This document shows, one piece after another, positions 114-12,949 of a stretch of DNA of 13,212 bases. The position numbers and the translations under genes were made by a program. The notes under the pieces were generated by a model, which saw only the letters and a list, made by a program, of their open reading frames with translations, was not told the origin of the DNA and did no database searches. The stretch is from assembly GCA_030765605.1 (NCBI GenBank), contig JAVCCG010000088.1, positions 1 through 13,212 of the forward strand, given 5' to 3'. The stretch comes from Candidatus Alcyoniella australis (GTDB lineage Bacteria > Lernaellota > Lernaellaia > JAVCCG01 > Alcyoniellaceae). Each line of letters begins with the position of its first letter. Position 1 is the first letter of the stretch.

Positions 114-995
114 ATGCCGCGCTCGTTGCGCCAGGCATTGGACGAGGACCGCTTTGCGATCACCGCCGAAGTCGGACCTCCCAAGGGGACCGACGTCGGG
201 CGGTTAATCGAGCAGATCGAGCTGCTCAAACCCGAGGTCGACGCGCTGAACGTCACGGACAACCAGTCCGCGGTGATGAAGCTCAGTCCGCTGGCGGCCT
301 GCAAGCTGATCGTGGACCGCGGCGGCGACGCGGTGCTGCAACTGACCTGCCGCGACCGCAACCGCCTGGCGCTGCAATCGGATCTGCTGGCAGCCTGGGT
401 GCTGGGCGTGCGCAACGTGCTGGCGCTCAGCGGCGACTACGTGCTGGTCGGCGACCACCCCCAGGCCAAGCCGGTGTTCGACCTGGACAGCGTGCAGCTT
501 CTGCAGACGATCGAGCTGCTCAACGCGGGCCGCGATTTGGCGGGCAACGAGCTTAGGGGCGGCACCGGATTTCTCGCGGGCGCGGCGGTGACGCCCGAGG
601 CCGATCCGCTCGAGCCGCAGCTTTTAAAATTCGAGAAGAAGATTGTGGCCGGTGCGCGCTTCTTCCAGACCCAGGCGGTGTTCGACGTGGAGCGCTTCGA
701 GTTCTTTATGCAAAGCGCGCGCAAACACGAGGTCAAGGTGCTGGCCGGGATCGTGCTGCTGGCGTCGGCGCGCATGGCGCGCTATATGAACGAGAAGGTT
801 CCAGGGATCGAAGTTCCCGACGCGCTGATCGCCCGCCTCGACGCCGCGGGCAAGGACGGCGCGCTGGAGGTCGGCATCGAGATCGCCGCGCAGACTATCC
901 GCAGGTTGCGGCAAGAGCAGATTTGCGATGGCGTGCACGTGATGGCCATCGGCCGCGAACAACTGGTGCCGCAGATTTTAGCGGCAGCGCAATAG
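114..995 (+). CDS. metF: Methylenetetrahydrofolate reductase (MetF)
   Basis: This flavoprotein of 293 residues reduces 5,10-methylene-THF to 5-methyl-THF, the last step of the methyl branch of the Wood-Ljungdahl pathway. It has the normal length of a bacterial MetF TIM barrel. Visible family signatures are the N-terminal EVGPPKG with the catalytic Glu at residue 19, NVTDNQ at 46-51, QLTCRDRNR at 76-84, LALSGD at 103-108, FFQTQAVFD near the middle, and GVHVMAIG near the C-terminus. The ATG at 114 is preceded by GGAGG at 100-104 with 9 bases of spacing. The frame stays open to the window edge, but the upstream residues do not resemble MetF. The probable metV tail directly upstream suggests a MetVF-type enzyme that takes electrons from a partner protein rather than directly from NAD(P)H; this is inferred from context. 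The gene ends 11 bases before folE2. Identification is secure. Confidence 0.95.
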   Translation: MPRSLRQALDEDRFAITAEVGPPKGTDVGRLIEQIELLKPEVDALNVTDNQSAVMKLSPLAACKLIVDRGGDAVLQLTCRDRNRLALQSDLLAAWVLGVRNVLALSGDYVLVGDHPQAKPVFDLDSVQLLQTIELLNAGRDLAGNELRGGTGFLAGAAVTPEADPLEPQLLKFEKKIVAGARFFQTQAVFDVERFEFFMQSARKHEVKVLAGIVLLASARMARYMNEKVPGIEVPDALIARLDAAGKDGALEVGIEIAAQTIRRLRQEQICDGVHVMAIGREQLVPQILAAAQ

Positions 996-1006: not shown

Positions 1007-1810
1007 GTGAGCAAGCGCGATTGGATCGACGTGGCCAGCCAACCCGACGAGCGGAATATCCCCATCGACAAGGTCGGCGTGAAGAACGTGCGCTACCCGA
1101 TCAAGGTCCTCGACCGCTCGCGCGGGACCCAGAGCACGGTGGCGGCGTTCAACATGTACGTCAGCCTGCCGCACAGCTTCAAGGGCACGCACATGAGCCG
1201 CTTTATCGAGATCCTCAACGAGCATCGCGGCGAAATCTCGACCAAGAACTTCAAGCAGGTACTGCGCGAGATCCGGCACCGGCTCGACGCCGAGGCCGCG
1301 CACCTCGAAGTCGAATTTCCCTACTTCATCGAAAAGCAGGCGCCGGTGAGCAAGGCGATGGGCCTAATGGAGTACCGCTGCTCGATCGTGGGCACCCTGC
1401 GCGCGGACCGCTACGACGTGGTGGTCACGGTGCGCGTACCGGTGACCACGCTCTGCCCGTGCTCCAAGGCGATCTCCGAGCGCGGGGCCCACAACCAGCG
1501 CGGCACGGTGAGCATCAGCTTCCGCTTCGACAGTCTGGTCTGGATCGAGGAGATCATCGAGCTGGCCGAGGGCTCGGCATCCAGCGCGGTCTACTCGATC
1601 CTCAAACGCGAGGACGAGAAGTACGTTACCGAGCACGCCTTTGACAACCCGGTCTTTGTCGAGGACGTGGTGCGCAACGTGGCCCAACGCCTGCGCGAAA
1701 TGGCGCACATCACCTGGTACGCGGTGGAGGTGGAGAACGACGAGTCGATCCACAACCACTCGGCCTACGCCTACGTCGAGCACGACAAACGGGAAGCCGA
1801 TGGCCGATAA
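1007..1810 (+). CDS. folE2: GTP cyclohydrolase FolE2 (type IB)
   Basis: FolE2 converts GTP to 7,8-dihydroneopterin triphosphate, the first committed step of folate synthesis. With the GTG start the protein has 267 residues, the usual family length. The active-site motif TLCPCSK places the metal-binding Cys at residue 150, and GAHNQRG places a His at 162. Glu219 in FVEDVVR and His249 in ESIHNHSAYAY match the remaining conserved positions. All four sit at a constant offset of +3 from the numbering I recall for the Neisseria enzyme (C147, H159, E216, H246). FolE2 enzymes tolerate metals other than zinc, unlike FolE. The gene starts 11 bases after metF, and its last 11 bases overlap the start of the next gene in a different frame. 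Location inside a C1 operon suggests that pterin supply is matched to Wood-Ljungdahl demand, which is inference. A role in queuosine or archaeal-type pterin synthesis is less likely given the folate enzymes around it. Confidence 0.95.
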   Translation: MSKRDWIDVASQPDERNIPIDKVGVKNVRYPIKVLDRSRGTQSTVAAFNMYVSLPHSFKGTHMSRFIEILNEHRGEISTKNFKQVLREIRHRLDAEAAHLEVEFPYFIEKQAPVSKAMGLMEYRCSIVGTLRADRYDVVVTVRVPVTTLCPCSKAISERGAHNQRGTVSISFRFDSLVWIEEIIELAEGSASSAVYSILKREDEKYVTEHAFDNPVFVEDVVRNVAQRLREMAHITWYAVEVENDESIHNHSAYAYVEHDKREADGR

Positions 1811-3731
1811 CGTGCGCGTCACTTTCCTGCCCGACAACGTCTCGACCCTGGTCGAACGCGGCGCAAGCGTGCTTTCGGCCGCGGTGCGCGCAGGGGTGCA
1901 CATCGACGCGGCCTGCGGCGGCAGCGGGACCTGCGGACGCTGCAAAGTGCGCGTACTGCAAGGCCAGACAAGTTCTCCGAGCACTTCGGCGCTGAGCGCC
2001 GATGAGGCTGCGCGCGGTCTGGTGCTTGCCTGCCGTTGCGAGGTTCACAGCGACGCGTTGATCGCACTGAGCGAACAGGCGCGGGTCGAACCCTCGGCGC
2101 TCTCAAGCGTCCCCGCCGCAACTGCTGCCGGACCGGGTGCCGCAGAACATGCACCCGCAGAGTTCGTCCTGGACCCGCCGGTATCCCGTCTCGACCTTGA
2201 ACTCCCCGAACCGACCCTGGCCGACAACGTGGGAGATCTCGAACGCGTGCTGCGCGAGGTCAAACGGCAGCACGGCATCAACGTGACCCAGATCGATCCG
2301 ATGGCGCTACACGGATTGGGCACTGCATTGCGCGAGGGCGACTGGCGCGCGACCGCTATTGTGCGTAGCGAGTCCGGCCAAACCCCGCGGCTGTTGGCGA
2401 TCCAATCCGGACTACGCGGCGCGGGCTGCGCCCTATCGCTGGACATCGGCACGACCACGATCTGGGGACGGCTGGACGACTTGGCCAGCGGTACGACCCT
2501 GGCCACGGCCTCGGACTACAACAGCCAGGTCTCGCTGGGCGAAGACGTAATCACGCGCATCGTGCATGCCGAACAGCCCGGCGGGCTGCAACGGCTGCAA
2601 CAGTCTGTAGTGCGCACGATCAACGGCGTGCTCTCGCGGCTGATCCAGGACGCTGGAATCGCGCGCCACGACGTGGTGCAGGCCACGGTCGCGGGCAACA
2701 CCACCATGACCCACCTGCTGTGCGGCTTTGATCCGCGCTCAATCCGACGCGCGCCCTACGTGCCGCTGGCAAGCAGCTTCCCTCCGCTGCGCGCGGCCCA
2801 GTTGGGGATCGAGCTTCCCGAGCAAGTGCCATTGCGGGCGCTCAGCGCGGTATCGAGCTGGGTCGGCGGCGACATCACGGCAGGGGTATTGGCCTCGGGC
2901 CTGGACCGCGATCCGCGGCTGACGCTCTACGTCGATTTGGGGACCAACGGCGAGATCGTGGTCGGCAACAACGAGTGGATGGCCAGCGCCTCGTGCTCTG
3001 CCGGCCCGGCGTTCGAGGGCGGCGGCGTGGGTTGCGGTGTACGCGCAGCGGCCGGAGCGATCAACGCCTTTCGCATCGACCGCGCGACCTGCGAGCCGAT
3101 GGTCGTAACCATCGGCCAAGCTCCGGCAATCGGCGTGTGCGGCGTGGGGCTGGTGCAGATGCTCTCCGAACTTTACTGCGCCGGGCTGCTCGAGCCCAAC
3201 GGCCGTTTCGCCGATCCATCGCGAAGCCCTCGACTGCGCGAGCGCGACGGCCGTACCCATTACGTAGTGGTCGAGGCCGCCAACTCGGCCGACGGCGTAG
3301 AGATCGTACTGAGCGAATCCGACGTGGAGAACGTGCTGCGCGCCAAGGCGGCGATGTACGCCGGGATCGTCACCGTGCTCGAGCAGGTCGAACTGAGTGT
3401 GGACGATTTACAGCGGGTAATCATCGCCGGCGCGTTGGGCAACTTTCTCGATCTGCAAAGCTGCGTGCGCATCGGCCTGTTCCCGGACATCGCGCGCGAA
3501 CGCTTCAGCTACATCGGCAACGGCTCACTGCTCGGTGCGCGGGCCGCGGCCCTGAGTCGCGAGGCGCTGGAGCGCAGCGAACGCATCGCCGGTTCGATCA
3601 CCAACATCGAGCTGGTGGACAACGCACGCTTCATCGATAACTACACCTCGGCGCTATTCCTGCCGCACACCGACCTCTCGCGCTTTCCCAGCGTCGCGTC
3701 GGATCGCCGCGGCTGCGGAGAAAAACGATGA
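1800..3731 (+). CDS. acsV: Ferredoxin/ASKHA corrinoid protein reductive activator (RACo/AcsV type)
   Basis: This protein of 643 residues should reductively reactivate the corrinoid Fe-S protein, returning accidentally oxidised Co(II) cobalamin to Co(I) with ATP hydrolysis. The N-terminus is a plant-type [2Fe-2S] ferredoxin domain with Cys39, Cys45 and Cys48 in CGGSGTCGRC, plus Cys78 or Cys80 in LACRCE. A linker of about 120 residues follows. From about residue 211 the DUF4445 ASKHA ATPase region begins with the phosphate loop SLDIGTTT (213-220), followed by TVAGNTTMTH, the second loop VDLGTNGE (from 378), and CSAGPAFEGGGVGCG. The ATG at 1800 gives MADNVRVTFLP, a normal family N-terminus; it overlaps folE2 by 11 bases and has GGGA upstream. 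The frame also runs upstream to 1641, but that part is a shadow of folE2. Proteins of this family also serve methanol, methylamine and demethylation systems. The acsCDE neighbours make the CoFeSP the natural client. The 3' end overlaps cooC by ATGA. Confidence 0.93.
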   Translation: MADNVRVTFLPDNVSTLVERGASVLSAAVRAGVHIDAACGGSGTCGRCKVRVLQGQTSSPSTSALSADEAARGLVLACRCEVHSDALIALSEQARVEPSALSSVPAATAAGPGAAEHAPAEFVLDPPVSRLDLELPEPTLADNVGDLERVLREVKRQHGINVTQIDPMALHGLGTALREGDWRATAIVRSESGQTPRLLAIQSGLRGAGCALSLDIGTTTIWGRLDDLASGTTLATASDYNSQVSLGEDVITRIVHAEQPGGLQRLQQSVVRTINGVLSRLIQDAGIARHDVVQATVAGNTTMTHLLCGFDPRSIRRAPYVPLASSFPPLRAAQLGIELPEQVPLRALSAVSSWVGGDITAGVLASGLDRDPRLTLYVDLGTNGEIVVGNNEWMASASCSAGPAFEGGGVGCGVRAAAGAINAFRIDRATCEPMVVTIGQAPAIGVCGVGLVQMLSELYCAGLLEPNGRFADPSRSPRLRERDGRTHYVVVEAANSADGVEIVLSESDVENVLRAKAAMYAGIVTVLEQVELSVDDLQRVIIAGALGNFLDLQSCVRIGLFPDIARERFSYIGNGSLLGARAAALSREALERSERIAGSITNIELVDNARFIDNYTSALFLPHTDLSRFPSVASDRRGCGEKR

Positions 3732-4501
3732 CAAAGGTTATCGCGCTGGCGGGCAAGGGCGGCACGGGCAAGACCACCGTGGCCGGGATGATCGTGCGGC
3801 GGCTGGTGGAGCGCTGGCCCGGGCCGGTGTTGGCCCTTGACGGCGACGCCAACGACAACCTGTCCGAGACCTTGGGCCTGGCGCGGCGCGGCAGCATCGC
3901 GGGCGTAACCGACGAGTTCGCGTCACAGCGCGACGACCTGCCCTCGGGCATGACCAAGGAAGCGCTGCTGGAAATGCGGGTCAGCGCCTCGATCAGCGAG
4001 GGGCGCGGAATGGACCTGTTGGTGATGGGCCACCCCGAGGGACCGGGCTGCTATTGCTACGTCAACAACGTGCTGCGCTCGCAAATCGAACGCCTGCAAT
4101 CGAACTACCGTTTTGTTGTGATCGACAACGAGGCGGGGATGGAGCACGTCAGCCGCCGCACCACGCGCAAGATCGATTTACTGCTGCTGGTGGCCGACTA
4201 TTCGGCCAAGTCGCTGCGCGCCGCGACGCGGGTTGCACAGGTCGCACGCGAGCTGGAGCTGGACGTGAAACGCACCGGGCTGATTCTCAATGGTGCGCCG
4301 CAAGATCACTCGGCGCTGGAGCCCGAGCTGCAAGCGACCGGCCTGGAGCTGCTGGCCGTGCTGCCTCACAGCGACCGTGTGCGCGACAACGACGTGCAGG
4401 CGCGCTCGGTTTTTGAGCTGCCGCAGGACGATCCGGCGCTGGTCGCAACGGCCGAACTGGTTGACAGGCTGGTCGCGGATATCGCAGTTTCTCAGGGTTG
4501 A
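3728..4501 (+). CDS. cooC: CooC/AcsF-type nickel-insertion ATPase
   Basis: This cytoplasmic MinD-type P-loop ATPase has 257 residues. The deviant Walker A motif AGKGGTGKTT (8-17) carries the signature first lysine at residue 10. DGDANDN follows near residue 38, and the Walker B-like strand reads VVIDNEAGMEHVSRR. The Cys-X-Cys motif GCYCY, with Cys108 and Cys110, corresponds to the metal-binding pair at the dimer interface of CooC that delivers Ni to CO dehydrogenase. The related AcsF matures acetyl-CoA synthase in Moorella. In this operon the only intact nickel enzyme is AcsB, so an AcsF-like role at the A-cluster is the better guess, although sequence alone does not separate CooC from AcsF. 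The ATG at 3728 overlaps the previous stop (ATGA), with GGAG at 3717-3720 as ribosome binding site. A 35-base gap precedes acsD. Confidence 0.93.
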   Translation: MTKVIALAGKGGTGKTTVAGMIVRRLVERWPGPVLALDGDANDNLSETLGLARRGSIAGVTDEFASQRDDLPSGMTKEALLEMRVSASISEGRGMDLLVMGHPEGPGCYCYVNNVLRSQIERLQSNYRFVVIDNEAGMEHVSRRTTRKIDLLLLVADYSAKSLRAATRVAQVARELELDVKRTGLILNGAPQDHSALEPELQATGLELLAVLPHSDRVRDNDVQARSVFELPQDDPALVATAELVDRLVADIAVSQG

Positions 4502-4523
4502 ATCCCGAGGCGAATCGACAGAG

Positions 4524-4528
4524 AGGAG
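4524..4528 (+). promoter_or_regulatory. Ribosome binding site setting the acsD start
   Basis: AGGAG sits 8 bases ahead of the ATG at 4537. It decides for that ATG over an in-frame TTG at 4498, which overlaps the cooC stop, has no purine-rich site at the right distance, and would add 13 residues that do not look like the family. Confidence 0.7.
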
Positions 4529-4536
4529 TTGGATCG

Positions 4537-5475
4537 ATGGCCGATTTTCCCAAGGTCGAGTCGAGCGGCTCGATCAATCAGCAGCGGCTGGGCGAGGGCG
4601 AGCATGGCCTGTCTCTCGGCGGTCAGGCGGCTTACCCGTTTCATACTTTCGACGGGTCGATCCCCAATCCCCCGGCCCTGGCCCTCGAGATCCACGATCG
4701 CCCGCCGACTGATTGGCCTGAGGCGCTCAACGAGATCTACTCCGAGGTCTACGCCGACCCCGCGAATTGGGCCCGCAAGTGCGTCGAGCTTGGGGCTGAC
4801 GCGCTGGTGCTGACCCTGACCAGCATCGACCCCAACGGCGACGATGCTTCGGCCGAATCCGCCGTGGAAACGGTCAAGGCCGTGGCCGCGGCGATCGACA
4901 GGCCGCTGATCGTCTGGGGCGTGGACAACGAGCCCAAGGACGGCGAGGTGCTGCGCGCCGTGGCCGAGGCAATCGACGGCCGACGGCTGGTTCTCGGCCC
5001 GGTGGTCGAGGGCAACTACAAGCAGGTCGGCGCGGGCGCCATCGGCTTCAAACACATGGTGGCGGCCAACTCGCCGATCGACATCAACCTGGCCAAGCAG
5101 CTGAGCATCCTGCTGGGCAACCTCGGGGTACACGAGGAAGACATCCTGATCGACCCCACCACCGGCGGCCTGGGCTATGGCCTGGAGTACAGCTACTCGG
5201 TGATGGAACGGGCGCGCATCGCGGCCCTGGTGCAGGGCGACGAAAAGCTGCAGTTCCCGATGCTGAACATGGTCGGCAAGGAGGTCTGGAAATCCAAAGA
5301 GGCCAAGGTGTCTGCCGACCAGCAGCCGACCTGGGGCGACGCTCGCGCACGCGGCATTTCCATCGAGTGCATCACCGGGGTCAGCCTGCTGCTGGCCGGT
5401 TCCGACCTGCTGGTGCTGCGCCACCCCGAATCGCTCAAACGACTGCGCGCCTACATCGCGCAGATGGTTCAGTAG
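4537..5475 (+). CDS. acsD: Corrinoid Fe-S protein small subunit (acetyl-CoA decarbonylase/synthase delta, AcsD/CdhD)
   Basis: This is the small, cobalamin-capping TIM-barrel subunit of the heterodimeric corrinoid Fe-S protein, which carries the methyl group from AcsE to acetyl-CoA synthase. The protein has 312 residues, matching bacterial AcsD. The family N-terminus is visible as GGQAAYPFHTFDGSIPNPP followed by ALEIHD. Barrel strands include ADALVLTLTSIDPNGDD, RPLIVWGVDNEPKDGEVL and DILIDPTTGGLGYGLEY, all typical of CdhD. It has no Fe-S cysteine cluster, as expected, because the [4Fe-4S] centre is on the AcsC subunit. Its partner acsC lies 3.4 kb downstream, separated by the CO dehydrogenase-like gene and acsB, whereas acsC and acsD are usually adjacent. 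The stop lies 2 bases before the next ATG. Confidence 0.95.
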   Translation: MADFPKVESSGSINQQRLGEGEHGLSLGGQAAYPFHTFDGSIPNPPALALEIHDRPPTDWPEALNEIYSEVYADPANWARKCVELGADALVLTLTSIDPNGDDASAESAVETVKAVAAAIDRPLIVWGVDNEPKDGEVLRAVAEAIDGRRLVLGPVVEGNYKQVGAGAIGFKHMVAANSPIDINLAKQLSILLGNLGVHEEDILIDPTTGGLGYGLEYSYSVMERARIAALVQGDEKLQFPMLNMVGKEVWKSKEAKVSADQQPTWGDARARGISIECITGVSLLLAGSDLLVLRHPESLKRLRAYIAQMVQ

Positions 5476-5477
5476 TC

Positions 5478-6647
5478 ATGGCCGCGAATACAGAGGACCG
5501 CTCGCTGCTACATGGATTGCGTGAGCTCGCCGCGCGCTGTGAGACGGCGGCCGGGCAGTTGAGCGATCGCGCCCCAAGCGAGGCGTTCGACCGGACACGC
5601 CTTCTCGCGCTGGCAACAGAGCTCGGAGTTCAGGTTGCCGAGCGCTCCGCAGCCGACGTGGCTGTTGATGTGGCGCAATGCGCTCTGGACTGGCTGGGCG
5701 ATGGCGAGCAGGCCCCGTTGCTGATCGACCGCGCACCGCCAAAGCGCCGCGAGGTTTGGCAGGCCCACGCAGCGACGCCGCGTGGCATGACCCGCGAGCT
5801 GGCCGAACTCGAACGCGATCCAGCGGGCGCTGCGCGAGCGGCACTGGCCGGAGTATGGGGCGCACAACTACTGAGCACGGCCCTTGACGACGCAACGCTC
5901 GGCCCGCCGCAGCCGCATGTGGCTGTGGCCGATGACACGCTAAAGTACGTGACCGGGTTCACGCCCGAAGCGATCGTCTACGCTCTGGGCGGCACGTTCC
6001 GCGGCTCGCTGGAGCCGCTGATAAGCAACATTGTCGACGGCCACGTGCGCGGAGTGGCGCTGGTGCTCGGCGAGCCCACGGCCGCGGGGCAGGCTCACGT
6101 CGAGCTGATCAAGGAATTGATCAAGCGCGACGTGCTGGTGCTGCTGTGCGGCAACGCCGAGAGCGAGTGCGCATCAGCGGGCCTGCTGACGCCCGATACG
6201 GCAGTTGAAATGTGCGGCGAGCGGCTGGCCGAGGTCTGCCGCGCGGTGGGGATCGGGCCGGTATTATCTATGGGCGCAAGCGTCTCACGCGGCCTAAGCG
6301 CATTGTGCGCGGTGGTGGACCAGGGCGGACTGGGCGACATCGCGGCCCTGCCCATAGCCTGCGCCGCTCCGGACTGGGACGAGGCCGCCACTCTGGCCCA
6401 AGGCTGCGGCCTGGCGGCAAGCGGCGCGCTGTTCGTGCTCGGCGGACCGTCGGCCCAAGGCCCTGAAATCGAAGCGCTGGCTACAGCGGCGGTTGATCTG
6501 GGCGGCGGATTTTTGCAGCAACCCGATCCGTTGACGGCCGCGAAGCTAATGCTGCAACAGATCGATGACAAGCGCCGCGAGCTGGGAATCGACCGCGCAA
6601 CCGAGCGCGTGCTGATGGACATGTCCGATCGCCGGGCGTTGGAGTAG
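5478..6647 (+). CDS. Truncated, cluster-less CO dehydrogenase (CooS/AcsA) homologue
   Basis: This protein of 389 residues clearly derives from Ni-CO dehydrogenase, which is normally about 640-670 residues. Residues 1-145 resemble the second half of the CODH helical domain (RAPPKRREVW, with KRREVW at 89-94, then TPRGMTREL and GVWGAQLLSTALDDATLG). Residue 157 onward (YVTGFTPEAIVYALGG) resembles the C-terminal Rossmann domain, through HVELIKELIKRDVLVL to a normal end (RVLMDMSDRRALE). Missing are the N-terminal region with the cluster B and D cysteines, and the whole middle domain of roughly 170 residues that holds the C-cluster His and two Cys. In the retained domain the other three ligand positions are changed: GCNNPK reads GEPTAA (Glu199), TGC reads GN (Asn226), and GSCVDN reads GASVSR (Ser268). 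The frame is intact and tightly packed between acsD and acsB, so it is not obvious decay. No Shine-Dalgarno site is visible at the start, so coupling to acsD translation is likely. CO oxidation is very unlikely; a structural role is inferred. The alignment is from memory. Confidence 0.85.
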   Translation: MAANTEDRSLLHGLRELAARCETAAGQLSDRAPSEAFDRTRLLALATELGVQVAERSAADVAVDVAQCALDWLGDGEQAPLLIDRAPPKRREVWQAHAATPRGMTRELAELERDPAGAARAALAGVWGAQLLSTALDDATLGPPQPHVAVADDTLKYVTGFTPEAIVYALGGTFRGSLEPLISNIVDGHVRGVALVLGEPTAAGQAHVELIKELIKRDVLVLLCGNAESECASAGLLTPDTAVEMCGERLAEVCRAVGIGPVLSMGASVSRGLSALCAVVDQGGLGDIAALPIACAAPDWDEAATLAQGCGLAASGALFVLGGPSAQGPEIEALATAAVDLGGGFLQQPDPLTAAKLMLQQIDDKRRELGIDRATERVLMDMSDRRALE

Positions 6648-6652
6648 TAACG

Positions 6653-8857
6653 ATGTCGAAGATCGTCGCATCGCTGGGGATACAGGGCGCACAGCAGATC
6701 ATCGAGCGCGCGACCGCCGCGCTGGATCGGGCCGTGACTGCCCACGGTCTTGATTGCCCTGTCGGGTTTCCCAACACCGCCTACTTTCTGCCGGTGACCT
6801 ACGGCATCCTCGGGATCAAGGTCGAGCGGCTCGAGCAAATGCGTCCGGCGCTCCAGCGCTGTTGCGAACTGCTGCCCGCTGCGCCGGACGAAGACGTGCA
6901 CCTGCCCTACCTCGGACCGGCGCTCGACGCGGGCATGGCCGCGCTGATCGGCGAGGAACTGATCGAGGCGATCCGCTGCGTGGAGCAGCCCGAGCTGTAC
7001 CTCGGCGGCGAGGAGATCGACGGACACAACATTTGGCTCGGCGCTGCCGACGATGTGGTGCTGCGCAAACGTGGCGTGGAGTTCGTCGACGGATCCGCGC
7101 CGGGCTTCGCCGCGATCCTCGGATCAGCCCCCGATCCGCAGACCGCCGTGGCGATCGCCGAAGAGCTACAGCGTAAGAACCTCTACGTGTTTATGGCCGG
7201 ATCGTCCAACGGCACGACCTTCGCCGAACAGCTGGTGCAATCCGGAGTGCAGGTCGGCTGGAACACGCGGCTGGTGCCCTTTGGCAGCGAGGCTTCGGCC
7301 GCGGCCTACGCCTTCGGCTTTGCCACACGGGCGGCAATGAGCTTCGGCGGCATCGGCCCCGGAGAGTTCAGCGCGATCCTGCGCTACAACAAAGAGCGGA
7401 TTTTCGCCTTTGCCCTGACCCTGGGCGCGATCACCCCCGAGTGGGCGGCGATCGGCCTGGGCGCGTTGAACTACGGCTTCCCGATCATCGCCGACAGCGC
7501 GGTGCCCGAGGTGCTGATCAGCGGCGTGTGCACCTACGAGCACCTGGTGGCCGACGTGCCCCACGAGAGCATCGTCAGCCGGGCGATCGAGGCCCGCGGT
7601 CTCAAAGTTCAGATCAGCGAGGTGCCGGTGCCAGTGGCCTACGGCCCGGCGTACGAGGGCGAGCGCGTACGCGGCGAGGATATTTTTATCGAGATGGGCG
7701 GCGGCCGCACGCCGGCCGTGGAGTGGACAACGTCGCTGCCGATGAACCAGGTCGAGGACGGCGACGTGCAAGTGATCGGACCAAAGCTTGACGATTGCGA
7801 GCCGGGCTCGCAGCTGCCGCTGGCAATCAAGGTCGAGGTCGCCGGACGCAAGATGCAGCCGGACTTCGAGCCGATCCTCGAGCGCCAGATCCATCACCTG
7901 CTGAACTACGCCCAGGGCGTAATGCATATCGGCCAGCGCGACCTGCTGTGGCTGCGCGTCTCGCGCGCGGCCGCGGCCAAGGGCTTCGAGCTGGCGCACC
8001 TGGGGCGCATCCTGCACGCCAAGTATCACGAGGACTTTGGCAACATCGTCGACAAGGTTCAGGTGCGGATCTACACCGAACGCGACGACGTGCAGCGCGT
8101 GCTCGATCAGGCCCAGGCGGTCTACCTCGAGCGCGACGAGCGGATCAGCGGGATGACCGACGAGCAGACCGATCCATTCTACTCCTGCACGCTGTGCCAG
8201 AGCTTCGCGCCGGCGCACGTCTGCATCGTCACGCCCGAGCGCGCGGGACTGTGCGGCGCCTACTCCTGGCTCGACTGCAAAGCCTCATTCGAGATCAATC
8301 CCACCGGCCCCAACCAGCCGGTGCACAAAGGCGAAACCCTTGACGCGGCCTTCGGCCAATGGGCCGGGGTCAACGAGTTCGTGCGTAAAGCCTCGCGCGG
8401 CAAGATCGAGCGCATCGACGCCTACAGCATCATGCGCGAACCGATGACCGCCTGCGGTTGCTTCGAATGTTTGGCCGCGGTGCTGCCGCTGTGCAACGGA
8501 ATCATGATCGTCGACCGCGACCACAGCGGCATGACGCCCTGCGGCATGAAGTTCACTACGCTGGCCGGTACGGTCGGCGGCGGGCAGATGACTCCGGGCT
8601 TCCTGGGCCACTCCAAACTCTACATCAGCAGCCGCAAGTTCATCTCAGCCGAGGGCGGCATCAAGCGCTTGGTCTGGATGCCGCGCAAACTCAAGGAAGA
8701 AATCCGTGGCCGCTTCGAGCGCCGCGCCGCACAGCTGGGAATCCCCGATCTGCTCCAGCGCGTGGCCGACGAGACCGTGGGCACCACCGAGGAACAAATT
8801 TTGCCCTTCCTCGAACAGAAGCAACACCCGGCGCTGACCATGGACCCGATACTCTGA
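6653..8857 (+). CDS. acsB: Acetyl-CoA synthase, CO dehydrogenase/ACS alpha subunit (AcsB)
   Basis: AcsB condenses CO, a methyl group from the corrinoid Fe-S protein and CoA into acetyl-CoA at the Ni-Ni-[4Fe-4S] A-cluster. With 734 residues it is the full bacterial form (Moorella ACS is about 729), including the N-terminal domain that docks on CO dehydrogenase and that archaeal CdhC lacks. All A-cluster ligands are present: Cys512, Cys515, Cys524 and Cys534 for the cubane, and the Cys601-Gly602-Cys603 motif for the distal nickel. Each sits at a constant +6 offset from Moorella 506, 509, 518, 528, 595 and 597, and Phe518 matches the gate Phe512. The ATG at 6653 uses GGAG at 6641-6644, inside the end of the preceding gene. 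The catalytic subunit therefore looks fully functional even though the adjacent CO dehydrogenase homologue does not. Confidence 0.97.
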   Translation: MSKIVASLGIQGAQQIIERATAALDRAVTAHGLDCPVGFPNTAYFLPVTYGILGIKVERLEQMRPALQRCCELLPAAPDEDVHLPYLGPALDAGMAALIGEELIEAIRCVEQPELYLGGEEIDGHNIWLGAADDVVLRKRGVEFVDGSAPGFAAILGSAPDPQTAVAIAEELQRKNLYVFMAGSSNGTTFAEQLVQSGVQVGWNTRLVPFGSEASAAAYAFGFATRAAMSFGGIGPGEFSAILRYNKERIFAFALTLGAITPEWAAIGLGALNYGFPIIADSAVPEVLISGVCTYEHLVADVPHESIVSRAIEARGLKVQISEVPVPVAYGPAYEGERVRGEDIFIEMGGGRTPAVEWTTSLPMNQVEDGDVQVIGPKLDDCEPGSQLPLAIKVEVAGRKMQPDFEPILERQIHHLLNYAQGVMHIGQRDLLWLRVSRAAAAKGFELAHLGRILHAKYHEDFGNIVDKVQVRIYTERDDVQRVLDQAQAVYLERDERISGMTDEQTDPFYSCTLCQSFAPAHVCIVTPERAGLCGAYSWLDCKASFEINPTGPNQPVHKGETLDAAFGQWAGVNEFVRKASRGKIERIDAYSIMREPMTACGCFECLAAVLPLCNGIMIVDRDHSGMTPCGMKFTTLAGTVGGGQMTPGFLGHSKLYISSRKFISAEGGIKRLVWMPRKLKEEIRGRFERRAAQLGIPDLLQRVADETVGTTEEQILPFLEQKQHPALTMDPIL

Positions 8858-8873
8858 CGAGGTAACGATCGAT

Positions 8874-10223
8874 ATGGCGCTATCAGGAATCCAGATCTTC
8901 AAGCTACTGCCCAAGACCAACTGCGGCGAATGCGGCGTGCCGACTTGCCTGGCCTTCGCCATGTCGCTGGCCGCGAGCAAGGCCGAGCTTTCGCAGTGCC
9001 CCTACATCTCGGACGAGGCCAAGGCCGCACTGAGCGAGGCCAGTGCTCCGCCGATCCGCACGGTGACCGTGGGCGCGGGGCGCGGCGAAATCAAACTCGG
9101 CGGCGAGACCGTGCTGTTCCGTCACGAGAAGACCTTCGTCAACCCGCCGGGCCTGGCGCTGTTGATCAGCGACGAGTACGACGACGCCGAGATCGACGCG
9201 CGCCTCGAGCGCTTCGAGCAGCTGCGTTACGAGCGCGTGGGGTCCGAGCTACGCGGCGACATGCTGGCGTTGCAGTGCGACAGCAACGACGCCGAACGCT
9301 TTGTTCACTTAATCGAGCGTACGCGTTCAGCCGACGGCGCGGCCTTCGTACTGATCGCCAAAACCGCCGAGCTGCTCGACGCCGGAGCCGCAGCACTGGC
9401 CGGTATGCGTCCGCTGCTCTACGCGGCCGACGCGCAGAACCTCGATGCCGTGGCCGCGGTTGCTAAAGATCGCGGCTGCCCGGTAGCAATCAAGGCCGAT
9501 AATCTCGAGGGCGTGGCCGCGCTGACCGCGGCGCTCGAGGCCCAGGGCATCCACGATATCGTGATCGACAGCGGCGCGGCTGATATTAAAACCGCGTTCG
9601 TCGACCAGATAGCGATCCGCCGCGGCGCGCTGCTGGCCAAGAACAAGGCCTGGGGTTACCCGACCATCAGCTTCCCCTGCCGCACCGCGTCCGATGCGTT
9701 GGACGAGGCCCTGCACGCGGCGACGTTCATCGCCAAGTACGCCGGGATCGTAGTGCTCTCGGACTTCCGCGGCGAGACGCTGCTGCCGCTGCTGCTGCAA
9801 CGGCTCAACATCTACACCGACCCCCAGCGGCCGATGGTCACCGAACCGCGGATCTACGAGATCGGCGCGGTGGACGACAGCTCGCCGTTGCTGGTGACCT
9901 GCAACTTCGCCCTGACCTACTTCATCGTCTCGGGCGAGGTCGAGGCCAGCCGCGTTCCGGCGCGGCTACTGGTGATCGACACCGAGGGGCTCTCGGTGCT
10001 CACGGCCTGGGCCGCGGGCAAGTTCGCCGGCGACCTGATCGGCCAGGCGATCAAGAAAAGCGGGCTGGCCCAAAGCAGCTCCAACCGCAAGGTGGTGATC
10101 CCGGGCGTAACCGCGGTAATCAGCGGCGAGCTCGAGCAGGAGCTGGGCGACGAGTGGGAAGTGCTGGTCGGACCGCGCGACGCGCCGAACCTCACGCCGT
10201 TTCTCAAGCAGCTTTGCGGCTAG
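8874..10223 (+). CDS. acsC: Corrinoid Fe-S protein large subunit (acetyl-CoA decarbonylase/synthase gamma, AcsC/CdhE)
   Basis: This is the large subunit of the corrinoid Fe-S protein, with 449 residues, the normal family size. The N-terminal [4Fe-4S] domain carries Cys17, Cys20, Cys25 and Cys42 in NCGECGVPTC and SQCPY. This low-potential cluster passes electrons to cobalt during reductive activation. A TIM barrel follows from about residue 65, beginning TVTVGAGRGEIKLGGETVLFRHEKT in two adjoining family motifs. The C-terminal 130 residues or so form the Rossmann-like cobalamin domain (LLVTCNFALTYFIVSGEVE, then LLVIDTEGLSVLTAWAAGK). The gene begins 16 bases after acsB with GAGG at 8859-8862, and it is followed after 28 bases by acsE, its methyl donor enzyme. 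It pairs with acsD upstream and is the client of the acsV product. Confidence 0.96.
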   Translation: MALSGIQIFKLLPKTNCGECGVPTCLAFAMSLAASKAELSQCPYISDEAKAALSEASAPPIRTVTVGAGRGEIKLGGETVLFRHEKTFVNPPGLALLISDEYDDAEIDARLERFEQLRYERVGSELRGDMLALQCDSNDAERFVHLIERTRSADGAAFVLIAKTAELLDAGAAALAGMRPLLYAADAQNLDAVAAVAKDRGCPVAIKADNLEGVAALTAALEAQGIHDIVIDSGAADIKTAFVDQIAIRRGALLAKNKAWGYPTISFPCRTASDALDEALHAATFIAKYAGIVVLSDFRGETLLPLLLQRLNIYTDPQRPMVTEPRIYEIGAVDDSSPLLVTCNFALTYFIVSGEVEASRVPARLLVIDTEGLSVLTAWAAGKFAGDLIGQAIKKSGLAQSSSNRKVVIPGVTAVISGELEQELGDEWEVLVGPRDAPNLTPFLKQLCG

Positions 10224-10251: not shown

Positions 10252-11139
10252 ATGAAGACCGTTGCCGAGAACATGAACATCATGTCGCGCTCCATCGGCG
10301 CGGCGATGCGCGAGCGCGACCCTGGGCCGATCCGCGAATTGGCCGCGCAACTGGCGCAGGCCCAGGTCGATTACATCGACGTCAACATCGGCCCGGCGCG
10401 CAAGGAAGGCCCGGAGCTGATCGAGTTCGTGGTGCGCGAGGTGCAGCAGGCGGCGCAGCGGCCGCTGTCGCTGGACACGATGAACCTCGAGGCGATGCGC
10501 GTGGGCCTGGCGGCCCACGACGATAGCTGGGGACCGCCGCTGATCAACTCGATCATGGCCCGTCCCGAACGGATCGAGGCCCTGCTGCCGCTGGCGGTGG
10601 AGCGCGGCGCGCAGTTCATCGCCCTGCTCTATGGCCCCGAGGGACTGCCGCGCGACGCTGAGGAGCGCGCGGGCCTGGCCGCGACGTTGCAGATCGCTGC
10701 GATCGAGGCCGGGGTGCCCGAGCAATCGATCTGGTACGACCCGGTGGTGGTGCCGGTCAACTCGCAGCAGGCCGAGCTGCAAGGCTGCACCGAGTTCATG
10801 ATGCTGCTGCCGGACATCGCGCCGAACTCGATGTCGATCTGCGGCCTGAGCAACGTGTCCAACGGCGCTCCCAGCAAGCTGCGTCCGCTGCTCAACCGCA
10901 CCTATTTGGCGATCCTGCGCCACTGGGGCGCCAAGTCGGCAATCGTTGACGGCCTGGATTCCGAGCTGCTGCGCCTGGCGCGCGACCAATGGCCCGAGCT
11001 CGACGCGTTGATCGGCCGAGTGGTCCAGGGCGAACCTATCGACGAGGGTGCGTTGTCGCGCGACGAGCTGGATTACGTCAAGACCGCGCGCGTGCTGCTC
11101 GGGCATTCGCTGTACTCCGACTCCTGGCTCGAGCTCTGA
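10252..11139 (+). CDS. acsE: 5-methyltetrahydrofolate:corrinoid/iron-sulfur protein methyltransferase (AcsE)
   Basis: AcsE transfers the methyl group of 5-methyl-THF to Co(I) of the corrinoid Fe-S protein, linking the folate branch (metF) to acetyl-CoA synthase. The protein is a pterin-binding TIM barrel of 295 residues, about 30 longer than Moorella MeTr, with the excess at the C-terminus (QGEPIDEGALSRDELDYVKT and beyond). Pterin-site residues are visible: Asp43 and Asn45 in YIDVNIGPA, Asp75 in SLDTMN (Moorella Asp75), Asn99 in LINSIM (Asn96), Asp163 in WYDP (Asp160) and Asn201 in GLSNVSNG (Asn199). MetH and other methyltransferases share this fold, but the position directly after acsC and the MeTr-like spacing favour AcsE. 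The ATG follows a strong but close GGAGGG. A 40-base gap without a terminator leads to the next gene. Confidence 0.94.
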   Translation: MKTVAENMNIMSRSIGAAMRERDPGPIRELAAQLAQAQVDYIDVNIGPARKEGPELIEFVVREVQQAAQRPLSLDTMNLEAMRVGLAAHDDSWGPPLINSIMARPERIEALLPLAVERGAQFIALLYGPEGLPRDAEERAGLAATLQIAAIEAGVPEQSIWYDPVVVPVNSQQAELQGCTEFMMLLPDIAPNSMSICGLSNVSNGAPSKLRPLLNRTYLAILRHWGAKSAIVDGLDSELLRLARDQWPELDALIGRVVQGEPIDEGALSRDELDYVKTARVLLGHSLYSDSWLEL

Positions 11140-11169
11140 GCGATCCCCTTACCCCGCGGCGCGCTGCCC

Positions 11170-11174
11170 GGAGG
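11170..11174 (+). promoter_or_regulatory. Ribosome binding site setting the ygiQ TTG start
   Basis: GGAGG lies 5 bases ahead of the TTG at 11180, and the residues that follow begin exactly where YgiQ proteins begin. The frame is open further upstream to 11048, but that stretch overlaps acsE in another frame and does not resemble the family. Confidence 0.7.
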
Positions 11175-11179
11175 AAACG

Positions 11180-12949
11180 TTGACCCACCTGCCGATCGAT
11201 CTTAACCAGGCCCGCGAACGCGGTTGGGACGCGCTTGACGTGGTGCTGGTCACCGGCGATGGCAACGTGGACCATCCGGCGTTTCCCGCGGCCCTGCTCG
11301 GCCGCTGGCTGGAGCATCACGGCTATCGCGTGGGCCTGATTTCGCGTCCCGATGCGCGCGACCCAGAATCGATCGCGACCCTGGGATTGCCGCGGCTGTT
11401 CTTCGGCGTGACCTCGGGCGCGCTGGACTCGATGGTCGCCAACTACACCGCACTCAAACGCCGCCGCTCGGACGATCCCTTTGCCCCGGGCGGCAAAGCA
11501 GGCGGCCGACCGGACCGCGCGCTTATTGCATACTGCAATTTAATTCGACAGCGCTTCGGCAAGTCGACCCTGATCGTGGCCGGTGGGATCGAGGCTGGTT
11601 TGCGACGCTTCGCGCATTACGACTTTTGGTCCGAAAAAGTACGGCGGCCGTTGCTGATGGACTGCGGAGCCGACGTGCTGGTGCACGGCATGGGCGAGGG
11701 CCCGCTGCTGCAAATCGCCCGCAACCTCGAACAGGGCCCGTCCGACCGCGAATCGCGGATCGACTCCCTGCGCACGATTCCCGGAGTGGTACACCGCACG
11801 CCGCGTAGCGCGCCCCCGCCATCCGATGGCCTCGAACTGCCCTCGAGCGAGCAGGTGGCCGCTGACCCGCGCACTCAAGCTCAGGCGCATCAGCTCGCTA
11901 CGAGCAATGCCGGACGCGTGCTTTGGCAGGACTGCGGCGGCATGCGCGTGATTCACAACCCGGCCTGGCCCACGGCCACGAGCGCCGAGCTCGACACGAT
12001 CTACAGCCTGCCCTTTACCCGCGATCCGCACCCGTCGCTGCACGGCTTGACCGTGCCCGCGCTTGAACAGGTGCGCTTCTCGATCACCAGCCATCGCGGC
12101 TGCTTCGGCGGGTGCGCGTTCTGCGCGATCAACGCGATCCAAGGCCACAGGGTATCGAGCCGCAGTCGTGAATCGATTTTGTCCGAGGTCGAACGCATCG
12201 TGCGCCACCCCCAGTTCCGCGGCACGATCAACGACCTGGGCGGACCAACCGCCAACTTCTACGCCATGGGCTGCACGCGCGATAAGCCGTGCGACCGGCG
12301 CTCGTGCCTCTGGCCCGAGCCCTGCGGCAAACTGCGCGCGTCCAATAATGATTACATCAAACTGCTGCGCGCCGCGCGCAAAGTTCCGGGGGTAAAACAC
12401 CTGTTCGTCACCACCGGCCTGCGCACCGACCCGGCCGTGCTCGGGCCCGAGCTGATCCGCGAGCTGGCCGCGCACCACACCAGCGGCCTGATCAAGGTCG
12501 CGCCCGAACACGTCTCGCCATGCGTGCTCGAGCTGATGCACAAACCGCCCATCGCCGGGTTCGAACGCTTTTTGGAAATGTTCCGGAGCTTCTCCCGCGA
12601 GGCGGGCAAAAAACAGTACGTGATTCCCTACATCATGGCCGCGCACCCGGGCTCGAGCATCGACCAGATGATCGAGGTCTATCACTTCCTCAAACGCCAC
12701 AATTTGCGAGTGGAGCAGTGCCAGATCTTCACTCCCACCCCGGGCACCGACTCGACAGTGATGTACGCCACGGGCCTGAACCCCGCGACCCTGGAGCCGG
12801 TCTTTGTGGAACGCGACCCCAAGCGGAAAAACCGCCAAAAGGCGCTGATCCTCTACCACCTGCCCGAAAGCCGCCGCCTGCTTGGTGAGATTCTTAAGGG
12901 GGCGAAACCCAAGCAGCCCGAGAGCAAAAAGCCCACACGCCGACGCTGA
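11180..12949 (+). CDS. ygiQ: YgiQ/UPF0313-family radical SAM protein
   Basis: This is a radical SAM protein of 589 residues from the UPF0313 (YgiQ) family, whose reaction is not established. The N-terminus reads DLNQARERGWDALDVVLVTGDGNVDHPAFPAALLGRWLE in consecutive family motifs. Next come LIVAGGIEAGLRRFAHYDFWS and the linker LPFTRDPHPSL. The radical SAM [4Fe-4S] motif in SHRGCFGGCAFC has Cys308, Cys312 and Cys315. A later Cys-rich segment, GCTRDKPCDRRSCLWPEPC, is typical of YgiQ, as are IKVAPEHVS and QIFTPTPGT. The tail is Lys/Arg-rich and short. The start codon is TTG with a good ribosome binding site. The gene follows acsE by 40 bases and is probably the last gene of the transcript. Why a YgiQ protein travels with acetyl-CoA synthase genes is unknown; chance co-transcription is possible. 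Confidence 0.92.
   Translation: MTHLPIDLNQARERGWDALDVVLVTGDGNVDHPAFPAALLGRWLEHHGYRVGLISRPDARDPESIATLGLPRLFFGVTSGALDSMVANYTALKRRRSDDPFAPGGKAGGRPDRALIAYCNLIRQRFGKSTLIVAGGIEAGLRRFAHYDFWSEKVRRPLLMDCGADVLVHGMGEGPLLQIARNLEQGPSDRESRIDSLRTIPGVVHRTPRSAPPPSDGLELPSSEQVAADPRTQAQAHQLATSNAGRVLWQDCGGMRVIHNPAWPTATSAELDTIYSLPFTRDPHPSLHGLTVPALEQVRFSITSHRGCFGGCAFCAINAIQGHRVSSRSRESILSEVERIVRHPQFRGTINDLGGPTANFYAMGCTRDKPCDRRSCLWPEPCGKLRASNNDYIKLLRAARKVPGVKHLFVTTGLRTDPAVLGPELIRELAAHHTSGLIKVAPEHVSPCVLELMHKPPIAGFERFLEMFRSFSREAGKKQYVIPYIMAAHPGSSIDQMIEVYHFLKRHNLRVEQCQIFTPTPGTDSTVMYATGLNPATLEPVFVERDPKRKNRQKALILYHLPESRRLLGEILKGAKPKQPESKKPTRRR

Follow-up and report, generated by a model that had tools for sequence, protein, structure and literature searches.

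Carbon monoxide dehydrogenase (CODH) and acetyl-CoA synthase (ACS) are treated as an inseparable pair, the CODH half being the CO maker. The gene examined here, at positions 5478-6647 of a stretch from Candidatus Alcyoniella australis that we call the window (the entire contig C88, 13,212 bp long, from a metagenome-assembled genome (MAG) of 4.29 Mb that is 98% complete), lies in an acs operon and encodes a reduced form of that half, which we term the shell. ACS without CODH is on record in Dehalococcoides: according to PMC7005905, the enzyme there splits acetyl-CoA, CO exits the cell and the methyl group enters biosynthesis. ACS also takes up CO from solution, with a dissociation constant (Kd) of 0.74 µM (PMC12289521). 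In C. autoethanogenum, CODH contacts ACS where Rossmann fold 2 begins, through a loop and helix alphaA, and in Moorella the ACS contact is made via N- and C-terminal extensions (both PMC11474084).

The product of 5478-6647 is confirmed as a CODH homologue without any metal site, encoded between acsD and acsB. It is read from an uninterrupted frame of 389 codons with no stop inside. The Pfam Prismane/CODH family matches it with E 7e-26, and its match to the D. vulgaris CODH (E 3e-42) consists of two collinear blocks (query 27-149 to chain 111-247, query 134-371 to chain 388-627), so that about 140 chain residues lying between them are missing from the shell. Ligand columns were read from an alignment with 52 full-length ACS-linked CODHs (L and G numbers below label the loci and genomes compared, G000 being the window's own genome). 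All six invariant N-terminal cysteines of the D/B-cluster region are gone, as are the histidines and cysteines of the deleted first Rossmann domain (H266/H268, C303/C304, C342 and C353 in L029). The columns of the last three C-cluster cysteines hold a gap beside Glu199 (L029 C454; the assignment of Glu199 hinges on where the gap is placed), Asn226 and Ser268. Ala304 stands in the catalytic Lys column, and Gly26 and Ser29 occupy the positions where the acid-base helix has its two conserved His. Thus, the window shell belongs to the Ni-CODHs by descent and fold (helical domain and Rossmann fold 2) and has none of the marks of a catalytic one: D/B cysteines, the C-cluster His and five Cys, the acid-base Lys and His, or a score above the family cut-off. 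Indeed, TIGR01702 (NCBIfam) gives 168 bits to the window shell, 286 and 251 to the shells of L094 and L142 described below, and has a curated cut-off of 478.

A preliminary description of this DNA had proposed that all the metal sites were lost while the helical segment and the C-terminal Rossmann domain were kept, and the alignment agrees. The residues that it named in place of the last C-cluster cysteines were right or nearly so, and the gaps that it gave, 2 bases on the acsD side and 5 on the acsB side (acsD stop 5473-5475, shell ATG 5478, shell stop 6645-6647, acsB ATG 6653), stand in the sequence together with Cys224, Cys231 and Cys295.

Modelled alone with AlphaFold2 from a 48-sequence alignment, as had been proposed, the window shell is predicted to be well folded (predicted local distance difference test, pLDDT, 81.7; predicted template modelling score, pTM, 0.83), the N-terminus, the loop 172-176 and the tail being its least confident parts. 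Superposition of the model on solved CODHs gives Z 43-47 and covers 364-371 residues. The model also superposes on chain 9g03_D (Z 21.7, 258 residues), which we read as the A1 domain of ACS because the chain has 291 residues and entry 9g03 contains C. autoethanogenum ACS chains. As modelled, the shell has the same helical-plus-one-Rossmann architecture as the ACS A1 domain. Sequence homology between the two was considered and rejected, as profile comparison was negative; structural similarity alone remains.

Used alone as the query against 84,980 genomes, the window shell gave no match because its peptide patterns were too specific; 80 acsB neighbourhoods were gathered from named genomes via a scan with AcsB. 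Where the region upstream of acsB was present, most neighbourhoods held a full-length CODH and some held none, and L094, from a Dehalococcoidales bacterium, held a 419-residue shell with the same two deletions. Three more shells were found among 250 relatives of the L094 genome, two in G214 and one in G233. All five shells, that of the window and four from three Dehalococcoidia genomes, are intact reading frames between acsD and acsB, and share the two deletions and the operon slot (5/5). This occurrence of the same two-part deletion in other ACS operons, with conserved linkage to acsB, goes beyond the preliminary description, which had suggested the orthologue search and linkage check; so does the lack of any other CODH in the window genome. 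The Cys equivalent to Asn226 is lost in all five shells and that equivalent to Ser268 in all except L094, which retains two of the last three C-cluster cysteines and is thus the least derived. G214 carries two separate acs operons (L141 and L142), each with its own shell gene, the two shells being 68% identical.

Shells are rare. A profile spanning the deletion junction found no additional one in 386 diverse bacteria (33 others with CODH), and none was found among 385 relatives of the L029 genome. We found no description of such a CODH-derived protein in the literature; published CODH surveys (PMC6344411, PMC8776680) dropped sequences shorter than 400 or 550 residues and also left out those in which clusters were deleted, which would explain why shells went unnoticed. 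Separately, the acsB-adjacent CODH gene of L076 (1273-3187), on the same contig as L149, is interrupted near 2226-2234 by a break in the frame; either an error in sequencing or a broken gene could account for it.

Searches of four shell-bearing genomes (G000, G098, G214 and G233) found no catalytic CODH, an absence that rests on MAGs whose completeness is known for G000 only. The prismane/CODH family is represented in the window genome only by the shell gene and a hybrid cluster protein on another contig, and the extra prismane matches of G214 are hybrid cluster proteins. A split CODH, its missing domain encoded elsewhere, was rejected on these searches of the two genomes. Formate-tetrahydrofolate ligase (PF01268) gave no match in G000, although metF and acsE are present, which makes a complete CO2-fixing Wood-Ljungdahl pathway unlikely in this genome. 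In 12 inspected Dehalococcoidia genomes with acsB and without CODH, acsD is followed directly by acsB; operons with CODH, with a shell and with acsD joined to acsB thus represent three states, full CODH, shell and nothing. Two of the CODH-less genomes, G181 (L213/L214) and G225 (L221/L222), each carry a pair of almost identical acs operons that lie about 30 kb from each other, and L222 lacks the acsD end and the first 38 acsB codons. In L030, from a Latescibacterota MAG without any prismane/CODH member, acsB comes right after yidC and mnmE, with no acsD or CODH upstream.

Under a site-mixture model, the shells fell in three places in the CODH tree. The window shell stood beside the CODH of L029 (support 91/88), the G214 and G233 shells stood beside L049 (100/98), and the L094 shell emerged inside the Dehalococcoidales CODHs, apart from the other shells; a topology with a single shell clade was rejected with moderate strength (approximately unbiased test, p-AU 0.033). 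The AcsB tree, independent of the shell tree, recovered the same three neighbourhoods (window with L029, 96; G214/G233 with L049, 99). Shared shell ancestry had been indicated by FastTree under a simple model, which grouped the window shell with those of G214 and G233 (0.94); the grouping is gone under the site-mixture model and was rejected as probable long-branch attraction. The simplest reading of the trees is three reductions of a resident CODH, each beside its own AcsB, so the event treated earlier as a one-off case appears to have occurred about three times.

We next consider what the shells have kept. Among the G214 and G233 shells, the ratio of nonsynonymous to synonymous substitution rates (dN/dS) is 0.16-0.20, with dS about 0.9-1.4, which indicates purifying selection on these copies. 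The best-kept segments are the start of Rossmann fold 2 (residues 155-198) and the last helix with the tail (351-389): positions that never vary in canonical CODHs are retained by all five shells at 31/43 in these segments and at 38/120 elsewhere (Fisher p 5e-6, for segments picked after the data had been seen), including all six in the tail. The CODHs encoded next to acsB are marked by an FR(A/G)S insertion of four residues and a tail of 18 residues, and both are retained in shells; CODHs without a nearby acsB (L012, L014, L016, L024) lack them. On the AcsB side, the divergence of A1 relative to A2+A3 was 1.05 +/- 0.17 with CODH, 1.25-1.38 with a shell and 1.33-1.98 (one value below 1.5) with neither, the order expected in these sequences if the shell still constrains A1. 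In the CODH-less Dehalococcoidia (L207-L221), A1 has selectively diverged and A2/A3 are conserved; the conserved FGG beside the alcove Phe has become FGN in most.

The recurrence of the cut in two other lineages suggests that the shell retains a non-catalytic job, for instance holding the synthase. We lean, at somewhat better than even, towards the shell being a non-catalytic docking and capping subunit of ACS that works without CODH. A resident ACS-linked CODH would have lost every metal site and turned into a partner of AcsB, contacting its A1 domain through the start of Rossmann fold 2 (the alphaA loop) and the C-terminal tail. Bound in this way, the shell would stabilise A1 and cap a tunnel mouth that would otherwise face a C-cluster. 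AcsB may then exchange CO with the solution, by supply or removal, and may act as an acetyl-CoA decarbonylase/synthase that is linked with the corrinoid protein and methyl-folate instead of with CO2 reduction. By analogy, a Dehalococcoides-like role is plausible here, with methyl groups passing via AcsCD, AcsE and MetF in either direction. We put forward more tentatively, as slightly short of an even chance, that AcsB and a metal-free shell form a new class of ACS complex, with at least three origins by the same domain excision, in which a CO2-reducing bifunctional enzyme became a solvent-coupled acetyl-CoA decarbonylase/synthase.

Several points weigh against the docking subunit. The shell is not required, since the 12 CODH-less Dehalococcoidia genomes keep ACS without one. 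The branch of the window shell measures 3.7-5.3 changes per column where canonical CODHs have about 0.2, which denotes fast evolution, and the lineage of this shell is a single sequence with no close relative for dN/dS. Moreover, the conserved segments could equally be fold core, the putative docking loop (172-176) and the tail are low-confidence regions of the model, and the A1 divergence classes overlap in species that are related, not independent. Among the roles offered in the preliminary description, a docking scaffold for AcsB is nevertheless the best supported, by the retained loop and tail and the A1 divergence, with binding as the presumed step. Regulation of a real CODH fails on the absence of a catalytic CODH from the shell-bearing genomes, and without a C-cluster there can be no true CO channel joining two active sites.

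The main rival to a docking subunit is that the shell is a transitional relic: CODH activity became dispensable, the gene is being lost stepwise and the remnant is weakly kept, the end state being the acsD-acsB junction of Dehalococcoides-like genomes. Relatives with that very junction exist, and the length of the window branch and the low retention in residues 301-350 would fit; however, random decay would yield stops and varied breakpoints, whereas three lineages halted at one two-domain product with frames and tails intact, and the low dN/dS and fully retained tail residues argue likewise. We consider a relic unlikely. The preliminary description took the gene to be maintained and not a fresh pseudogene, a view upheld by four intact relatives in the same slot, the dN/dS of the G214 and G233 shells and the confident CODH-like fold prediction. 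The CooC-type ATPase encoded in the operon and the likeness of the shell to ACS A1 (the 9g03_D match) could also point to an assembly or maturation helper, a chaperone or platform for nickel insertion into AcsB by CooC/AcsF that is released at maturity, but CODH-less relatives have CooC and AcsB and no shell, and we regard this as improbable.

Less probable still is a translational spacer, whose frame would be retained because acsB translation is coupled to the shell gene. The short flanking gaps and a GGAG preceding acsB inside the last shell codons speak for coupling, yet coupling requires the 3' end alone and not a conserved CODH fold under such selection, acsD alone precedes acsB in CODH-less relatives, and the shell lies tens to hundreds of bases from acsB in L094 and L142. 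The retained Rossmann fold might also have gained a new metal or cofactor site and a catalysis of its own; a new metal site had been left open earlier on account of three cysteines. The window shell has nine in all (Cys21, 68, 224, 231, 246, 254, 277, 295 and 310) and the G214 and G233 shells have lineage-specific ones too; however, C224, C246, C277, C295 and C310 are present in no other shell, and the only cysteine common to all, Cys254, is invariant in canonical CODHs as well, where it is structural and not known to be a ligand. We give such a site very little credence. Hardly any is due to an assembly or binning artefact, a canonical CODH collapsed by misassembly or a contig foreign to its genome. 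The window comes from a single MAG, and ACS is absent from the rest of the seven genomes examined from its class, but the same architecture stands on four other contigs from three genomes, ligands are lost by point changes within the retained part, and contig composition matches the rest of the genome (GC 0.656, tetranucleotide r 0.77). With ACS in one of seven class genomes, while the contig fits its genome in composition, the acs operon was perhaps acquired horizontally.

On the + strand, the window reads metF, folE2, the RACo/AcsV corrinoid activator, the CooC-type ATPase, acsD, the shell gene, acsB, acsC, acsE and a YgiQ-type radical SAM gene (features below). The mechanical reading frame of the last, 11048-12949, overlaps acsE at its end, and the gene probably starts near 11190 instead.

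Features of the window, with the shell and its parts listed before the neighbouring genes.
Feature	Position	Strand	Evidence
Metal-free CODH shell (mini-CODH), 389 aa	5478..6647	+	CODH matches, alignment, AlphaFold2 model, structure superposition
Helical domain (residues ~7-146) fused straight to Rossmann fold 2 (~155-371), then C-terminal tail (372-389)	within 5478..6647	+	
Deletion junction, residues ~146-156; first Rossmann domain (~150 residues in relatives) gone	5913..5945	+	alignments
Start of Rossmann fold 2 (residues 155-198), putative alphaA docking loop	5940..6071	+	alignment; C. autoethanogenum CODH docking site from PMC11474084
C-terminal tail, residues 372-389 (DRATERVLMDMSDRRALE), seen in CODHs adjoining acsB	6591..6644	+	alignments
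GGAG, possible acsB ribosome-binding site within final shell-gene codons	6641..6644	+	sequence
acsB, acetyl-CoA synthase, 734 aa; A1 (CODH-binding) domain present, A-cluster ligands intact	6653..8857	+	family match, alignment
acsD, corrinoid iron-sulfur protein small subunit	4498..5475	+	family match
acsC, corrinoid iron-sulfur protein large subunit	8874..10223	+	family match
acsE, methyltransferase (pterin-binding)	10252..11139	+	family match
CooC/AcsF-type nickel-maturation ATPase	3728..4501	+	P-loop ATPase families; equal operon slot in relatives
Corrinoid activation protein (RACo/AcsV)	1796..3731	+	family match; mechanical ORF opens at 1641
metF, methylenetetrahydrofolate reductase	114..995	+	family match

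Here the CODH half is still present although its catalytic centre is gone, and lineages have arrived at this excision repeatedly. If the shell does bind ACS, the structural role of CODH, holding A1 and gating the tunnel, would be separated from its catalysis, and the shell would be a natural reagent with which to probe the function of the CODH-ACS contact.

Among known proteins, the hybrid cluster protein (prismane) shares the Pfam superfamily of the shell, but the genuine one of the window genome is on another contig and the window shell is unmatched by the hybrid cluster family TIGR01703 in the NCBIfam search. Mini-CooS (Techtmann et al. 2012; clade G in PMC8776680) is likewise a short CODH homologue; by the definition in PMC8776680 it requires a complete metal-cluster motif, whereas the window shell has lost every metal site. 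The ACS A1 domain resembles the shell as a metal-free helical bundle with one Rossmann fold, but has no profile-level sequence relation to it and is part of AcsB, where it is separately present here. The ACS-linked Ni-CODH (AcsA/CooS; TIGR01702) has the helical domain, Rossmann fold 2, the tail and the FR(A/G)S loop in common with the shell, and is likewise encoded between acsD and acsB; unlike it, the window shell has no B/D N-terminus, first Rossmann domain, C-cluster ligands or catalytic Lys and His. The incomplete Wood-Ljungdahl pathway of Dehalococcoides mccartyi (Zhuang et al. 2014, described in PMC7005905) also pairs ACS with a corrinoid protein and no catalytic CODH. The window genome likewise has acsB, acsC and acsD without a catalytic CODH, though not without a CODH-derived gene. 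Dehalococcoides is described in PMC7005905 as lacking AcsE and MetF, and in Dehalococcoides-like operons no gene separates acsD from acsB, whereas the window operon encodes both enzymes and carries the shell in that position.
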